Below, piece by piece: positions 38,186 to 43,222 of a stretch of DNA of 43,294 nt. The position numbers were made by a program, and so were the translations under genes. This DNA comes from a virus: IMG/VR virus record IMGVR_UViG_3300020177_000015, positions 1 to 43,294 of that record; one strand, 5' to 3'. Position 1 is the first letter of the stretch. Every line of letters begins with the position of its first letter. The notes beneath the pieces were generated by a model. That model saw nothing but the letters and a program-made list of their open reading frames with translations. It made no database searches and was not told the DNA's origin.

Positions 38186-38653
38186 ATGAAGATATTTAAA
38201 GTAAAAAATCAAACAGATGGGAAAGTTTATGTAGGTTATTCAGTTAATGACAATCCTAATAACTTAGGGTCTGGAAAATACATTAAGAGGGCGGTGAAGG
38301 ATTTTGGTACAAAGTCTTTTACTAAAACCATTCTTGAAGAATTTGAAACAGACGAGTCATTAGGTCATATTATGGATAGGGTAGAGTTTTGGATTAAAAA
38401 ATACAAAGCTGACAATCCTAAATATGGTTACAACGAAAGCGTACAGGAAATGATTCCACAAAAGAAAAGACTTACAAAAAAATTACAAGTTCTTTTAACT
38501 CCTGAAGATGAAGATAACCTTAATACTATCATCATTCAAAAATCAATGGAAACAAAAACAAAACCGATGCCAGTTTCTAGGTATGTTAGACAACTTATTG
38601 TTGAGCATATAGTAGAGGAGACATCACCAGAAAAACAATTAACAAAAAATTAA
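38186..38653 (+). CDS. GIY-YIG-like endonuclease with a C-terminal ribbon-helix-helix-like domain
   Basis: A 155-residue protein. The N-terminal 90 residues resemble the GIY-YIG nuclease domain of SegA/SegB-type phage endonucleases. IFKVKNQTDGKVYVGYS stands for the GIY...YIG strands, GSGKYIKRAVKDFGTKSF contains the Arg helix, and MDRVEFWIKKY contains a candidate catalytic Glu. The C-terminal part (LQVLLTPEDEDNLNTIIIQKS, MPVSRYVRQLIVEHI) looks like a ribbon-helix-helix DNA-binding fold. It lies between the tube gene and the hub gene with its own terminator upstream, and next starts 7 bases after it; such placement is typical of a free-standing homing endonuclease that moved into a tail operon. 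Confidence 0.62.
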   Translation: MKIFKVKNQTDGKVYVGYSVNDNPNNLGSGKYIKRAVKDFGTKSFTKTILEEFETDESLGHIMDRVEFWIKKYKADNPKYGYNESVQEMIPQKKRLTKKLQVLLTPEDEDNLNTIIIQKSMETKTKPMPVSRYVRQLIVEHIVEETSPEKQLTKN

Positions 38654-38660
38654 ATAAATT

Positions 38661-39665
38661 ATGAGTAGTCACGAAGACAACATTAAAAAAGAGTTTGAAG
38701 CAGCTGAAGGTATACAAGATACTGAAGCCACTGTTAAGACTAATGAGGATGGTGTAATTACTGAACTGGGTAAGGTTGATACCACCAGGGGTAGTGGAAT
38801 TACATCACCAGACGATCCTGAAATACAGAGAATTCAAGCTTTAGCAGGTTATGTAAAATTAGATTTAGGTAACTTCCCATCAAAAGGTAAATTCTATAGA
38901 GAAGATTTTGAAATTCATATTAGAGCCGCAAGAGTTGGTGAAATTAGAGAATTTTCTACATTGGATGAAGATAACATTTTAGATGTAGATGAAAAGTTAA
39001 ATTCTATTCTTGTTAACTGTACTAAGATAATGTATGGTACACAAAGAGGTTCATATAGAGATGTTTTAGAAGAAGATAGAATCTTTTTAATTTTGGCAAT
39101 CCGCGAATTAACATTTAAGAGCGGTGAAAATAAACTTATGATGCCAGTAGGTAAAAAGGCATGCCCAACTGGAGCATGTAAATCTCAGGATTCCGTAGAG
39201 CTTAAAACTACTAATCTTCAATTCCAAGAAGGGGACGAGTTACTAGAAAAGTATTACGATTATCAGAATAAGTGTTTTACTATTCCAACAAAAAAACATG
39301 GAGAGCTTACATTAGCACCGCCTACAATTGGTGTTATGCGAGCAATTACAACATGGATTAGAAAACGTGAAGAAGAAGGTAAATCTTGGGATAGGTCATC
39401 ACTTACCATACTACCTTATATACAAAGAGAGTGGAGAGGTTTCAATGATAAAGAAATCTTTTCTGCAATAACAAATTTCCAAGGCTGGGATGCTAATAAA
39501 TTTTCAATCATTTACAGACTTGTGGAAAAAGCGAAAATTGGAGTTAAACCTGAGTTTATCTATCCATGTGAATCTTGTGGTGCGGAGGTCACAGTTCCGC
39601 TTTCCTTTCCCGGCGGTGTCAAGGCTCTCTTTATTATTCAAGATATCACTTCTGAACTTCTTTAA
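38661..39665 (+). CDS. Baseplate hub assembly protein (gp26-like)
   Basis: A 334-residue protein. A flexible acidic N-terminus precedes LDLGNFPSKGKFYREDFEIHIRAARVGEIREFS and a block with ILVNCTKIMYGTQRGSYRDVLEEDRIFLILAIRELTF, a pattern of T4 gp26-type hub proteins and of tail assembly chaperones in general. Two Cys pairs follow: CPTGAC (around residue 172) and CESC near 307, in a CESCGAEVTVPLSF block. It ends at CTT-CTT-TAA (39663-39665); an overlapping +1-frame ORF continues to 39912. The tape-measure gene comes next. A +1 frameshift could make a long chaperone form. The T4 number is an inference. Confidence 0.62.
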   Translation: MSSHEDNIKKEFEAAEGIQDTEATVKTNEDGVITELGKVDTTRGSGITSPDDPEIQRIQALAGYVKLDLGNFPSKGKFYREDFEIHIRAARVGEIREFSTLDEDNILDVDEKLNSILVNCTKIMYGTQRGSYRDVLEEDRIFLILAIRELTFKSGENKLMMPVGKKACPTGACKSQDSVELKTTNLQFQEGDELLEKYYDYQNKCFTIPTKKHGELTLAPPTIGVMRAITTWIRKREEEGKSWDRSSLTILPYIQREWRGFNDKEIFSAITNFQGWDANKFSIIYRLVEKAKIGVKPEFIYPCESCGAEVTVPLSFPGGVKALFIIQDITSELL

Positions 39666-39716
39666 GGTTAGAGTCTTATTATTGGAAAAGTTGCATCTCC
39701 AGCCATCTGAGCTGGA
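39577..39716 (+). other. Possible programmed +1 frameshift region (CUU-UAA-G)
   Basis: The gp26-like frame ends with CTT (39660-39662) followed by TAA and G. Slipping one base forward places the tRNA on TTT and continues AAG-GTT, entering the ORF that ends at 39912. A CUU-stop arrangement is the same as in the bacterial prfB frameshift site. Hairpins flank it: GCGGA 39582-39586 with TCCGC 39596-39600, and TCCAGC 39698-39703 with GCTGGA 39711-39716. The coding region around 39595-39640 uses unusually C/G-rich codons (CCG, CCC, GGC, GTC, CTC). Confidence 0.45.
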
Positions 39717-39912
39717 TTTGCTTCCTTTCTATGAATATGAGTACACTCTTGAAATGTTTAATGACATAATGAAAGAGCGTAACGATGATGAGCGCAAGCA
39801 ACAGACGTCGTATGGGGATAAATATGATATGGGAGGTATGAAAAAACAGATGAAAAATATGTCATCATATAAAACTCCATCAATGCCGAAAATAAGCATG
39901 CCTAAGTTCTAA
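39682..39912 (+). CDS. Overlapping +1-frame tail assembly ORF
   Basis: This frame is open from before 39490 to 39912; its clearly protein-like part is LLLEKLHLQPSELDLLPFYEYEYTLEMFNDIMKERNDDERKQQ, then a Met/Lys/Ser-rich tail ending MPKF. No ATG is available just before it. It may start at TTG 39682 (listed here), at GTG 39616 or ATG 39490, or be the C-terminal part of a +1-frameshift fusion with the gp26-like protein. The PSELDLLPFYEYEY block resembles the second part of tail assembly chaperones (ending in a short helix before the tape measure). The next gene (tape measure) begins 10 bases after the stop. Confidence 0.6.
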   Translation: MEKLHLQPSELDLLPFYEYEYTLEMFNDIMKERNDDERKQQTSYGDKYDMGGMKKQMKNMSSYKTPSMPKISMPKF

Positions 39913-39922
39913 TAAATATAGT

Positions 39923-42900
39923 ATGGCAGCAGTAACCTTAAAAGACTTGATGAGCCCTCTATCTAAGATAGAGGCTTATTCAAAAGAAACCAGCGAAAGC
40001 GTTAAAAGAATTGAAGATTTTATCGTTAAGGGTATGGGTTCAACGGGTAGTGCTGATGCCACATCTGCTGCTATACTTTCGGTCTCACAACAACAGTTAT
40101 CAGTATTACAAAATATTAGATCACTAATAGGCCAACATCTTGGTGTGGCAATAATGCATGAAGAAGGTGCTAGATCATTTGCAGGTGATAGTATAAGACA
40201 AGCAATAAGAGATAGAATTTTAGGTAATAGAGATTCTAAAAACTTAGAAATACTTGCAAAAAACGCTAATAATAAAAGCACAGGTAGCGATAAGACTACT
40301 AATAAGAAGAGTAGTGGAAAGATTGATGGCAAAGCCGCTTCAGCATTAAAGGATTTAGGATACGGCGCTTTACTTACAGGTAAGGCGATGTTAGTGTGGA
40401 GTATTGTTCCTAAAAGAGCTGTTAATAAATTCCTGGATTTTGTAGTTAACTCATTTGAAAGATTTGAATCCTTCAATACAAAGAAAGTACAGAAAGGGAT
40501 TGATGCATTGGATTCTATGGGAGATGCTATTATAAAGTTTGCTGGAGGTTTGGCTTTAGCAACACCTCTTATCTTAATAGGTCTTGTAGGCTTACCTATT
40601 CTTATACCTACTCTGTTTATTATGGGCGGTGTCTTTTCTCTTCTTGGTAATAAAAAGTTTTCACAGAACATTAGAAAGGGTGCTAGATCTGTTGATAGAA
40701 TGGGTGATGCTATTCTTTCCTTTGGTATTGGAATGGCTGCATTTGCTCTTACTACATACTTTATCCTTAAACAGCCTGCAATTTTGCTAGGAATGGTTTT
40801 ATCATTAGTACTTATAGGTGGGGCTGTTGCTTTACTAGGTACCAAAGTAATGAGTAAAAAGGTAAGAAGAGGCTCTCTTAACTTACTTATTATGGGGGCA
40901 GCCGTAGGTGTCTTTGGTATAGGGTATGGAATTTTTGCTGCCGCATTTCCTAAGAATGTAGGTTTTAAAGATGTTTTAATACAAGCTGCTGCTATAGCAG
41001 GTATAGGAATTGCTACTGCAATAGTAGGAAAATTTGGATTAACTAATATTGCATTAGGTGCATTATCATTAGCTCTTAACGGATTAGGATTGCTTGTATT
41101 TAACATGGGTTATGTTCCTTTTGCCGATGCAACTAAAGGAATGTCATTAGCAGATGTTGGAATACAAAGTGGTGTCCTATTAGCGGTAGGTGGTATAATG
41201 GCATTAGCAGGTCTTGCTGTTACGGCATCCGCTGGTGCTATATTATTAGGACCTGCTCTTTATGCTGCTGCTGGATGGTCATTAACATTATTAGCACCAG
41301 GACTTGAGGCAATGAAGGATTTAGAATATTCTGAACAAGACTCTAAAGATCTCGCTACTACATTAGGTGCCGTTGCAATGGCATTCTCTGGTGTTGATCC
41401 TGAAGCTGGGGCTTTTGGAATGTTAAAAGGTTTATTTACTAGGGTAGTACAGAGTGGCGGTGGATTAGCTGCAGCTAAAATGTATGCTGCTGCTGGTTCC
41501 GCATTACAAGAATTATCAAAAGGCTTAACTGATTTTAAAGCAGTCGGTTTTACAGAAGATGATTCAAAAGAATTAGCAATAGCATTAGGATCTGTTAGTG
41601 GAGCATTTGCCCAAGCTGGCGGAGAACCTGCTAGCCCAGGTGGATTGTTTGGTGCAGTATTTGGAAATACATTTAGTCCTAATGCTACTGAACGTGGTAT
41701 TGATTCAGTAATGGATTCAGGTAAGGCTCTAATGGAAATAACAAAAGGGCTTGCTTCATTCTTAGATCTTAAAAAGAAATACAAATTAGACGGTGATGCA
41801 TTTAAAGAAGGCGGTTATCTTAACACTGCTATAACTGAAACTCTAGGTTTCCTAAACTCTGCTTTTGCCGCAATCGGTACTAATGAAACGTCAGATTCTT
41901 GGGGAATATTTAGCTGGGACGAGAACAGTGTTGAAAAAGGTATTGATGCAGTTAAAGGATCAGGTAAAGCACTAAAAGACATAACAGAAGGTCTTAAAGG
42001 ATTTTTAGATCTTAAGAACAATTACGGGCTAACTTCTGAATCATTCATGGAAGGTGGGTTCTTATACACAGCCGTTACAGATTCATTAGGTTTTATTAGT
42101 AAGGCTTTTGCTACTATAGGTGGAGAAGAAACTGAAGATTCATGGGGTCCATTTAGATGGGATGAGAATAAGGTAGAAAAAGGTATTGACGCAGTAAGCG
42201 GTGCAGGTAAAGAATTAACTAATATTGCAGAAGGTCTTTCTAAGTTCCAGGAATTAGTTAAAGCAAAAGTTGATTTTAGTAAAGGTGGCGCATTAGAACA
42301 AGCCGTTACAAATTCATTAACTTTTGTTGGTGATGCCTTTGCCGTAATTGGTGGTAAGGAAGAAGAAGACGGATGGTTTATATTTAGTTGGGATGAAAAC
42401 CTTGTTGAAAAAGGTGTTGATGCAGTTCAGGGTGCAGGAGAAGAACTTATGAACATTGCAACAGGATTAGAGACATTCCAAAAACTAATAGATCAAAAGG
42501 TAGATTGGGATAAGTTAAAAACATCAATTGTAAATTCAGTAACCTTTGTAGGAGATGCATTTTCTGCTGTTGGTGGAATGAAAGAAACTGATAGTAGTTT
42601 CTTTGGTTTAATAACATGGGATGAGAATTTAGTAGCGGAAGGGATAGATGCCGTTAAGGGTGCTGGGGAAGAATTAATAAACATTGCAAAAGGTATTGAG
42701 GCTTTTGCAGGTATAAAGAATCCAGCTAAAGTTGCAAAAAGTATATCTTCAATATTTAATAATATTGCAGATACATTCCAAAATCTTTATAACCCTGAAG
42801 ACACAAGATCAAGAATGAGTCATTTTAGAGTTTGGATAACTAATTTGACTGATGCAGCCAAAGACAATTCATTGGCAAAGGCTGCTGATGATATGCAAGA

Positions 42901-43222
42901 ACTTGTAAATGCTATTAATTCTACAGATATTTACAAAGCTGAAGCTTTAGGAAACTTATTTAAGGGTGCAGGTGAACTAAGTAGAAATCGTCGTGCATAC
43001 AACGATTTATATAGAGCGGTTGAAGACATACGAGATCTCTTGGCAGAATCTGGCGGTGGCGGCGAAGGTGTACCTGGCGGTGGTGGCGAAGGAACTCCTC
43101 CAAAAGATTCTGGAAATTCTGCTGCATTCTCAAAACTTAATAGCACACTTAGCAGACTTAATTCTACGATGAGTTCTCTACCTGCAGCTATTCAATCTAT
43201 TAAGATAGAAATTCCTGATTAA
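39923..43222 (+). CDS. Tail tape-measure-like protein (gp29 position)
   Basis: A 1099-residue protein. It begins with a coiled region (residues 1-120), then a Lys/Ser/Thr-rich linker and four to five hydrophobic stretches (about 205-460; LALATPLILIGLVGLPILIP, FALTTYFIL, LLIMGAAVGVFGIGYG, LAVGGIMALAGLAV), as in many tape-measure proteins. Residues 592 to about 930 are tandem repeats of about 76-81 residues, each with GI-DAV-x-GAGKEL, a WDEN motif and a FVGDAFA-IGG motif. A Gly/Glu-rich segment near 1053-1067 precedes a short helical C-terminus. Position after the gp26-like gene fits tape measure. If length rules apply (about 0.15 nm per residue), a tail of roughly 165 nm is implied. Confidence 0.72.
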   Translation: MAAVTLKDLMSPLSKIEAYSKETSESVKRIEDFIVKGMGSTGSADATSAAILSVSQQQLSVLQNIRSLIGQHLGVAIMHEEGARSFAGDSIRQAIRDRILGNRDSKNLEILAKNANNKSTGSDKTTNKKSSGKIDGKAASALKDLGYGALLTGKAMLVWSIVPKRAVNKFLDFVVNSFERFESFNTKKVQKGIDALDSMGDAIIKFAGGLALATPLILIGLVGLPILIPTLFIMGGVFSLLGNKKFSQNIRKGARSVDRMGDAILSFGIGMAAFALTTYFILKQPAILLGMVLSLVLIGGAVALLGTKVMSKKVRRGSLNLLIMGAAVGVFGIGYGIFAAAFPKNVGFKDVLIQAAAIAGIGIATAIVGKFGLTNIALGALSLALNGLGLLVFNMGYVPFADATKGMSLADVGIQSGVLLAVGGIMALAGLAVTASAGAILLGPALYAAAGWSLTLLAPGLEAMKDLEYSEQDSKDLATTLGAVAMAFSGVDPEAGAFGMLKGLFTRVVQSGGGLAAAKMYAAAGSALQELSKGLTDFKAVGFTEDDSKELAIALGSVSGAFAQAGGEPASPGGLFGAVFGNTFSPNATERGIDSVMDSGKALMEITKGLASFLDLKKKYKLDGDAFKEGGYLNTAITETLGFLNSAFAAIGTNETSDSWGIFSWDENSVEKGIDAVKGSGKALKDITEGLKGFLDLKNNYGLTSESFMEGGFLYTAVTDSLGFISKAFATIGGEETEDSWGPFRWDENKVEKGIDAVSGAGKELTNIAEGLSKFQELVKAKVDFSKGGALEQAVTNSLTFVGDAFAVIGGKEEEDGWFIFSWDENLVEKGVDAVQGAGEELMNIATGLETFQKLIDQKVDWDKLKTSIVNSVTFVGDAFSAVGGMKETDSSFFGLITWDENLVAEGIDAVKGAGEELINIAKGIEAFAGIKNPAKVAKSISSIFNNIADTFQNLYNPEDTRSRMSHFRVWITNLTDAAKDNSLAKAADDMQELVNAINSTDIYKAEALGNLFKGAGELSRNRRAYNDLYRAVEDIRDLLAESGGGGEGVPGGGGEGTPPKDSGNSAAFSKLNSTLSRLNSTMSSLPAAIQSIKIEIPD
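41696..42720 (+). repeat. Five tandem coding repeats in the tape-measure gene
   Basis: Repeat starts, marked by GI-D-[AS]-V or GV-DAV, are at 41696, 41939, 42182, 42413 and 42641, spaced 243, 243, 231 and 228 bases. Shared motifs per unit are GAG-[KE]-E-L, FxxAF-x-[AI]-[GVI]-GG and W-DEN. More degenerate copies can be traced upstream to about 41310 (DDSKELAIALGSVSGAFA). Confidence 0.88.

Follow-up and report, generated by a model that had tools for sequence, protein, structure and literature searches.

A predicted +1 frameshift at UUU_C in a phage gene of the T4 gp26/gp51 chaperone family

In phage lambda, the short and long tail assembly proteins gpG and gpGT are produced by a −1 frameshift, and T4 has been named as an exception to this conserved tail-chaperone frameshift (PMC5009743). 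T4 has two separate paralogous genes, 26 and 51, each read in one frame, whose products are both listed as hub assembly chaperones, with gp51 not found in the virion (PMC3004832). Here we analyze a locus in the virus record IMGVR_UViG_3300020177_000015 (positions 1 to 43,294; this whole stretch of 43,294 nucleotides (nt) is referred to below as the window), in which an open reading frame (ORF) of the T4 gp26/gp51 family, ORF A, overlaps a conserved reading frame, B. As in the lambda system, a single gene lies 5' of a gene in the tape-measure position and overlaps a frame without a common start, so that a short and a long form are expected; it differs from lambda in that the shift would be +1, on UUU_C, and in that the protein family is that of T4 gp26/gp51. 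Sequence comparison makes it quite probable that A and B are one gene, with a +1 frameshift at UUU_C giving a short and a long form of the chaperone.

Several described systems share parts of this arrangement (papers cited by PMC number are drawn on here in part). Members of the G/GT class that shift +1 exist or have been predicted, as in the haloarchaeal myovirus HSTV-2. The phage training set of PRFect contains 350 forward slippery-site cases, and its authors identified no general forward-shift motif while describing UUU and CCC as slippery before a stop (PMC10885494); +1 shifts in tail chaperones are therefore not new as such. The GeneTack study gives an efficiency of 6-7% for tail-chaperone frameshifting in two HK97-like genes (PMC3711429). 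In Listeria phages, +1 shifts occur at CCC_U in tsh and cps, in a low-GC host where proline codons of this kind are rare (CCC makes up 5% of Pro codons; PMC5009743); those sites slip on CCC itself and yield capsid and tail-shaft protein variants.

In site anatomy the closest cases are influenza PA-X (UCC_UUU_CGU), which shifts +1 on UUU_C with a tRNA-Phe that prefers UUC and the help of a rare A-site codon (PMC3498833), and the plant amalgaviruses, proposed to use a UUU_CGN +1 site (PMC5052127). Our locus would likewise place UUU_C in the P site, with the A site holding a codon that starts with C and is often rare, and relatives of the window carry the comparable sites TCC TTT CCC, AAC TTT CGC and GGC TTT CGT. 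PA-X and the amalgavirus proteins, however, belong to eukaryotic RNA viruses, whereas here we deal with a bacterial phage in which the A-site codon is mostly CCC and a GGAGG lies upstream in many relatives. The prfB (RF2) site shares the +1 direction, the slow A site and an upstream Shine-Dalgarno-like (SD-like) element; its spacing is 3 nt, whereas here GGAGG lies 17 nt 5' of UUU and the A site would hold a sense codon. Among the open-access titles and abstract openings listed, which can give only a weak absence, we found neither a gp26/gp51-family frameshift nor a phage UUU_C +1 site reported, and the full anatomy of a UUU_C site was found described only for eukaryotic viruses.

A conserved reading frame in the +1 register

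ORF A comprises 334 codons and a stop, and its 3' end reads CTT CTT TAA G. An earlier note on this DNA had pointed to this CTT-TAA-G end, to a +1 frame open for about 80 residues beyond it and to the lack of a nearby ATG for that frame, all of which our analysis bore out: the B frame runs for 82 codons past the stop of A to its own stop ending at 39912 and contains PSELDLLPFYEYEY, and its sole ATG 5' of the stop of A, at 39490, is kept in place in only 9 of 80 relatives, all nine near-identical. The features of the locus are as follows.

38661..39665, + strand: ORF A, gp26-like hub/tail assembly chaperone, short form, 334 amino acids (aa), assigned from family matches of aligned members
39584..39588, + strand: GGAGG, SD-like element ending 17 nt 5' of TTT, in excess over synonymous shuffles
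39606..39609, + strand: proposed +1 shift site UUU_C (tRNA-Phe moving from UUU to UUC), from TTT-C conservation and a rise in codon identity
39609..39611, + strand: rare zero-frame codon CCC, predicted to be in the A site at the shift, from codon bias after TTT
39610..39909, + strand: extension B after the predicted shift, 100 codons, stop at 39910-39912, from +1-frame conservation and phrog_634 matches of homologues
39619..39662, + strand: dual-coded overlap of the A tail and a B block of the type S-x-L-F-S-L-F-Q-I-S-L-x-N-F-F, conserved in both frames
39663..39665, + strand: stop TAA of A, the site favored by the earlier note, where GAA CTT CTT TAA R is read in B as AAC TTC TTT AAR

A query made from the +1-frame block retrieved at least 453 IMG/VR relatives, of which 80 (58 distinct) were kept. 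For statistics we assembled 201 loci (the window, the 80 IMG/VR relatives kept from a first search, 10 of 21 loci of a second set with L083, 28 of 80 rows of a third, L182, and the 80 kept from the +1-frame query), reduced to 110 distinct sequences and then to 40 representatives with less than 80% amino-acid identity in A; further distant phages were compared by eye, outside the statistics. B is open in the +1 frame of A for 82-86 codons beyond the stop in 80/80 relatives, and it lies in the +1 frame, not in the −1 frame as in lambda, in 80/80 loci, 58/58 distinct loci and 40/40 representatives. Directly after the stop of A, codons change synonymously (AAG/AAA, GTT/GTA/GTC, AGA/CGA) while the protein sequence K[VI]RVLL is kept, which indicates that B is coding from the first codon after that stop.

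Coding in B appears to begin earlier still. The whole overlap is open in the +1 frame in 39 of the 40 representatives, the fortieth (L125) having no overlap. No +1 stop occurs in the 702 overlap codons of these 39, as compared to 891 in 12118 codons upstream, and synonymous shuffling left the overlap open in 16.0 ± 2.8 of 39 (maximum 25 in 2000 shuffles); the open +1 frame is therefore not due to chance. The +1 protein is also conserved: in 38 representatives (leaving out L125, without overlap, and L205, with an insertion) its BLOSUM similarity within the overlap was 3.50, as compared to 1.07 ± 0.11 in synonymous shuffles, while two upstream control segments gave 0.17 (shuffles, 0.03 ± 0.08) and 0.11 (0.02 ± 0.14). 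Judged from these comparisons, strong selection at the protein level acts on the +1 frame from 39619 onwards, 44 nt 5' of the stop of A. The conserved block, of the type FSLFQISLxNFFK, is read 5' of that stop; the matching block of L090 and of the Lak phage L092 is aligned 3' of it. In L091 (Lak-B5) the B frame has a TAG at 2845-2847 where its sister L092 has GAA, which fits the reassignment of TAG in Lak phages.

The candidate shift site

The place of the frame change can be bounded from both sides. In 10 of 40 representatives the +1 frame has a stop two bases 5' of TTT, giving an overlap of 59 nt. No ATG was found in the +1 frame between 39604 and 39666 in 38 representatives, nor is any ATG, GTG, TTG or CTG column common to all 38; the best columns, CTG at 39649 (21/38) and TTG at 39634 (15/38), both lie inside the conserved block. 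Because the +1 stops come before TTT, the block starts at 39619 and there is no common start, the slipping codon should be one of the six between 39600 and 39617. Two other candidate starts of B were rejected: CTG 39652, in TCTGAACTT, whose position is not common to L083, L096, L099 and L111, and TTG 39682, where many relatives have TTA or CTA and upstream of which coding has already begun.

A scan of codon identity in A (observed/expected, leaving out L125 and L182) points to TTT within this interval. Upstream of TTT the ratio is mostly near baseline (1.08 ± 0.10 in 5-codon windows), with GAG at 39585 as an exception (1.49). It rises to 1.52 at TTT 39606 and 2.13 at 39609, falls back at two Gly codons (1.01 and 0.73) and is then mostly 1.2-3.2 over the rest of A from 39618, with 0.83 at 39621. 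TTT-C is present in 37 of 39 overlapping representatives and in 108 of 110 distinct sequences, L253 and L260 having TTC CCA. Among distant loci inspected by eye, TTT-C stands at this place in 8 of 12 (PAU, pT24, MaF61 and L088-L092), and in L205, which lies on the same contig as L111, extra codons have been inserted between TTT and the block with TTT-C and the frame both kept.

The codon that follows TTT is strongly biased, being CCC, CGC or CGT in 32 of 39. CCC is used in 26 of the 30 cases where proline is encoded, although it makes up 3.8% of Pro codons in the same genes, and all six arginine cases have CGC or CGT (background 2.9% and 11.7% of Arg codons, so that CGT is not very rare). Elsewhere in A, none of 42 in-frame TTT-C occurrences (36 representatives) is followed by CCC or CGN. 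As a slipping codon in its own right CCC was rejected, since it is missing in 13/39. The codon before TTT ends in T in only 1 of 39, as compared to 17.9 expected, an avoidance that perhaps serves to prevent −1 slippage on U_UUU. Within 36 nt 5' of TTT, GGAGG occurs in 24 of 40 representatives, in 22 of them at 17 nt (synonymous shuffles, 1.6 ± 1.1, maximum 5 in 500), and GAGG in 32 of 40 (shuffles, 9.1 ± 2.5, maximum 17). The conservation, the open frame, the missing common start, the six-codon interval and the rare-codon bias are all read directly from the sequences, as are the homologue families described below.

From these patterns we infer the shift itself, the exact slipping codon, the direction and efficiency of the shift, and the function of both forms. 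Most ribosomes would translate ORF A, a putative hub and tail assembly chaperone of the T4 gp26/gp51 family, to the 334-aa short form. A fraction would slip +1 at UUU_C (39606-39609), the P-site tRNA-Phe re-pairing from UUU to UUC while decoding is slow at the A-site codon, which is CCC here; the slipped ribosomes would then read B and produce a predicted fusion of 416 aa that includes residues 1-316 of A. The two forms may play the parts of lambda gpG/gpGT in tail assembly, and those of T4 genes 26 (short) and 51 (long).

Exceptional lineages and rival explanations

In L125, B lies 3' of the stop of A and begins with its own ATG, MKAVAGISVDKKSILSMFKINLENFFK..., and L127 has the same B start; the earlier note had named a homologue with an ATG for B as evidence against a frameshift, and such homologues do occur in this one lineage, while some distant phages also have an ATG in or near the overlap. 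The free-standing B of L125 contains a homologue of the overlap block, which indicates that this block is real B protein. At the shift site, L125 has TTT followed by the common codon CCA, its preceding codon ends in T, and GGAGG and GAGG are both absent. The loss of these features together with the overlap favors frameshifting where the overlap is kept, though it is no proof of it.

Several observations weigh against a shift at UUU_C. Among loci that keep the overlap, L209 has CCA after TTT and L224 has T before it, as in L125; together with the 16 of 40 representatives that lack GGAGG, most of which keep the overlap, these reduce each single loss in L125 to weak evidence. B is separate in L125, so that not every lineage requires A and B to be covalently fused. 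A common codon follows TTT in 7 of 39 (CAA in 3, CCA in 3, CCT in 1), and L253 and L260 (2/39) keep the overlap with TTC CCA and no GGAGG. Four of the 12 distant loci, L081 and L086 (both MA9V phages), L087 (PTm1) and L093, are without TTT-C. The spacing of 17 nt between GGAGG and TTT is not that of prfB, RNAalifold found no consensus structure in four stretches of 37 representatives, and the shuffle and binomial figures assume independent lineages, an assumption that holds only in part. The RNAalifold result also led us to drop an upstream hairpin, TTCAGA/TCTGAA, located immediately 5' of CTTCTTTAA.

The same exceptions bear on other ways of expressing B. It is unlikely that B is a separate protein made by an internal non-AUG start or by reinitiation with no frameshift: although B is an ORF with an ATG in L125/L127, ATG codons occur in or near the overlap in MaF61, PTm1, L088, L089, L093 and PAU, and the upstream GGAGG could be counted in favor of such a start, the CTG and TTG columns at 39649 and 39634 are shared by only part of the representatives and fall inside the conserved block, and in ten representatives a +1 stop precedes TTT by two bases. 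An internal start also gives no evident reason for the rare codons after TTT or for the avoidance of T before it. A −2 slippage would reach the same frame as a +1 shift and is used by Mu (PMC3498833), and the slip could take place at another codon of 39600-39617. In L253 and L260, which are without TTT at its place 57 nt 5' of the stop of A, the sequence GTC/ATC AAA AGT offers an AAA_A slip 15 nt downstream of that place. We nevertheless regard both of these variants as quite unlikely, since by reasoning no −2 re-pairing is available at TCC TTT CCC and TTT is better conserved than the remaining codons of this interval.

The earlier note had placed a +1 programmed frameshift in a T4-type gp26-like gene before the gene in the tape-measure position, and this part of its proposal agrees with our results; its choice of CUU-UAA as a prfB-like slip site does not. 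Many relatives do end in CTT CTT TAA, and prfB is known to shift at CUU-U before a stop. The CUU-stop arrangement is, however, not conserved among homologues: TTA TAA, CTA TAA and GAG TGA occur in its place, the last two codons vary among CTT CTT, CTT TTA, CTT CTA, CTA CTT, TTA CTA, TTA TTA and TTG GAG, and B is kept without any CUU before the stop in L213 (TTA CTA TAA) and L129 (TTA TTA TAA). Dual coding accounts for the motif (E-L-L-stop over N-F-F-K), which some lineages have lost, and since coding in B is kept 44 nt 5' of the stop and the free-standing B of L125 contains the overlap block, a shift at CUU_UAA is very unlikely. A sequencing error (also named in the note), a decayed gene or transcriptional slippage is hardly credible: we found no point in its favor, the same arrangement recurs in independent assemblies and in the isolate genomes of PAU, pT24, PTm1, MA9V and MaF61, the site has no homopolymer of 6 or more, and purifying selection is strong.

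In the Chryseobacterium phages MA9V-2 (L081) and MA9V-1 (L086), B lies in the +1 frame with neither TTT-C nor GGAGG. The host family of these phages, that of Chryseobacterium, is described as having an altered anti-SD and no prfB shift (PMC8710568). MA9V is one lineage and by itself proves nothing on a link between anti-SD and site; no IMG/VR relatives of the MA9V query were found. In Bacteroidia more widely, the prfB +1 frameshift is reported in 523 of 726 genomes (PMC8710568), and ribosomes are reported to ignore SD sequences (PMC9976891; PMC8710568).

Relation to T4 gp26 and gp51

Family searches connect A to the T4 baseplate hub. Of 19 aligned members of the A family, 12 match Pfam T4_baseplate (PF12322; E ≤ 0.1, best 1.4e-7) and 17 match the baseplate hub family phrog_150 (E ≤ 0.01, best 4.9e-9); the A of the window itself matches phrog_150 at 7e-4 and has no Pfam match. 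A structure model of A (predicted local distance difference test, pLDDT, 79) had no PDB match at E ≤ 0.001, and a sequence search of PDB with A5 reached at best 0.013, which is not significant. In BFVD the same model matched relatives (down to 2.5e-25) as well as proteins that carry the names T4-like baseplate hub or hub assembly (2e-10 to 5e-4). As the model of the fusion had low confidence (pLDDT 63), nothing was built on it.

For B, 4 of 7 homologues match phrog_634, the baseplate hub assembly catalyst family (best 4e-6), and phrog_634 matches are also found in L125, L185, L200 and L188, not in the B of PAU or L088. T4 gp26 and gp51 are related to each other (BLASTP 2e-6). In T4, gp51 matches both phrog_150 (residues 3-248) and phrog_634 (147-246) in one frame, and gp26, of these two families, only phrog_150; T4 thus seems to encode the long and the short form as paralogues. 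In the T4 record (AF158101, L263), gp51 has the appearance of a gp26 paralogue with a C-terminal extension, that is, of a long form. On these matches, A would belong to the family of the gp26/gp51 hub chaperones and B to that of the C-terminal part of gp51, with the B of the window itself below significance.

Two results count against this relation: the window record has no phrog_634 match at E ≤ 1, matches being found in 4 of 12 records, T4 included; and our own A and B profiles gave weak results with T4 proteins, the direct match of B to gp51 not being significant, so that the link between B and gp51 runs through phrog_634. With the T4 proteins, relatives of A have phrog_150 and PF12322 in common, and some relatives of B phrog_634. 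As for copy number, phrog_150 covers two genes in T4 and was found in only 2 of 9 other distant records. A search with profile A1, which derives from those nine records and therefore recovers them by construction, gave one A gene in 8 of the 9, two in LR745206 and none in T4. The second A-like gene of LR745206.1 (262746-263378, 257 aa) is without the end of A and is a possible paralogue, as in T4.

We lean towards a reading in which T4 obtains its short and long forms by gene duplication and T4-type phages of Bacteroidota obtain them by a +1 shift at a UUU_C site that is followed by a rare A-site codon and in many cases preceded, at a distance, by GGAGG. A 2025 description of large aquatic phages, mostly with Bacteroidota hosts, states that no tape-measure gene was found, and it does not use the word frameshift (PMC12619734).

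The neighborhood of ORF A is otherwise that of a tail and structural gene cluster. Structural genes of the window match PHROGs for portal, protease, major head protein, terminase, sheath and tube, which from the family numbers we take to be T4-type families. An ORF resembling GIY-YIG homing endonucleases lies at 38186-38653, between the tail tube gene and ORF A. Downstream of B follows:

39923..43222, + strand: large gene (1099 aa), taken as the putative tape-measure gene solely from its place and length

Family searches with the product of this gene gave no convincing match.

If the shift takes place as proposed, T4 would follow the G/GT rule in another version rather than form an exception. 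Gp51 has been called essential and of unknown function (PMC3004832); should it be the long paralogue and gp26 the short one, analogy to gpG/gpGT would make its role testable. For the study of +1 signals, the site would also supply a large set of natural variants, from phages whose bacterial hosts have ribosomes with a hidden anti-SD. The annotations of the isolate genomes L081, L082, L084 and L087 treat B as a hypothetical protein of its own that starts late or at a non-ATG codon. With a shift at UUU_C, annotation would need correcting throughout a large phage family, isolates included, where B is now given as an independent ORF whose start is doubtful.
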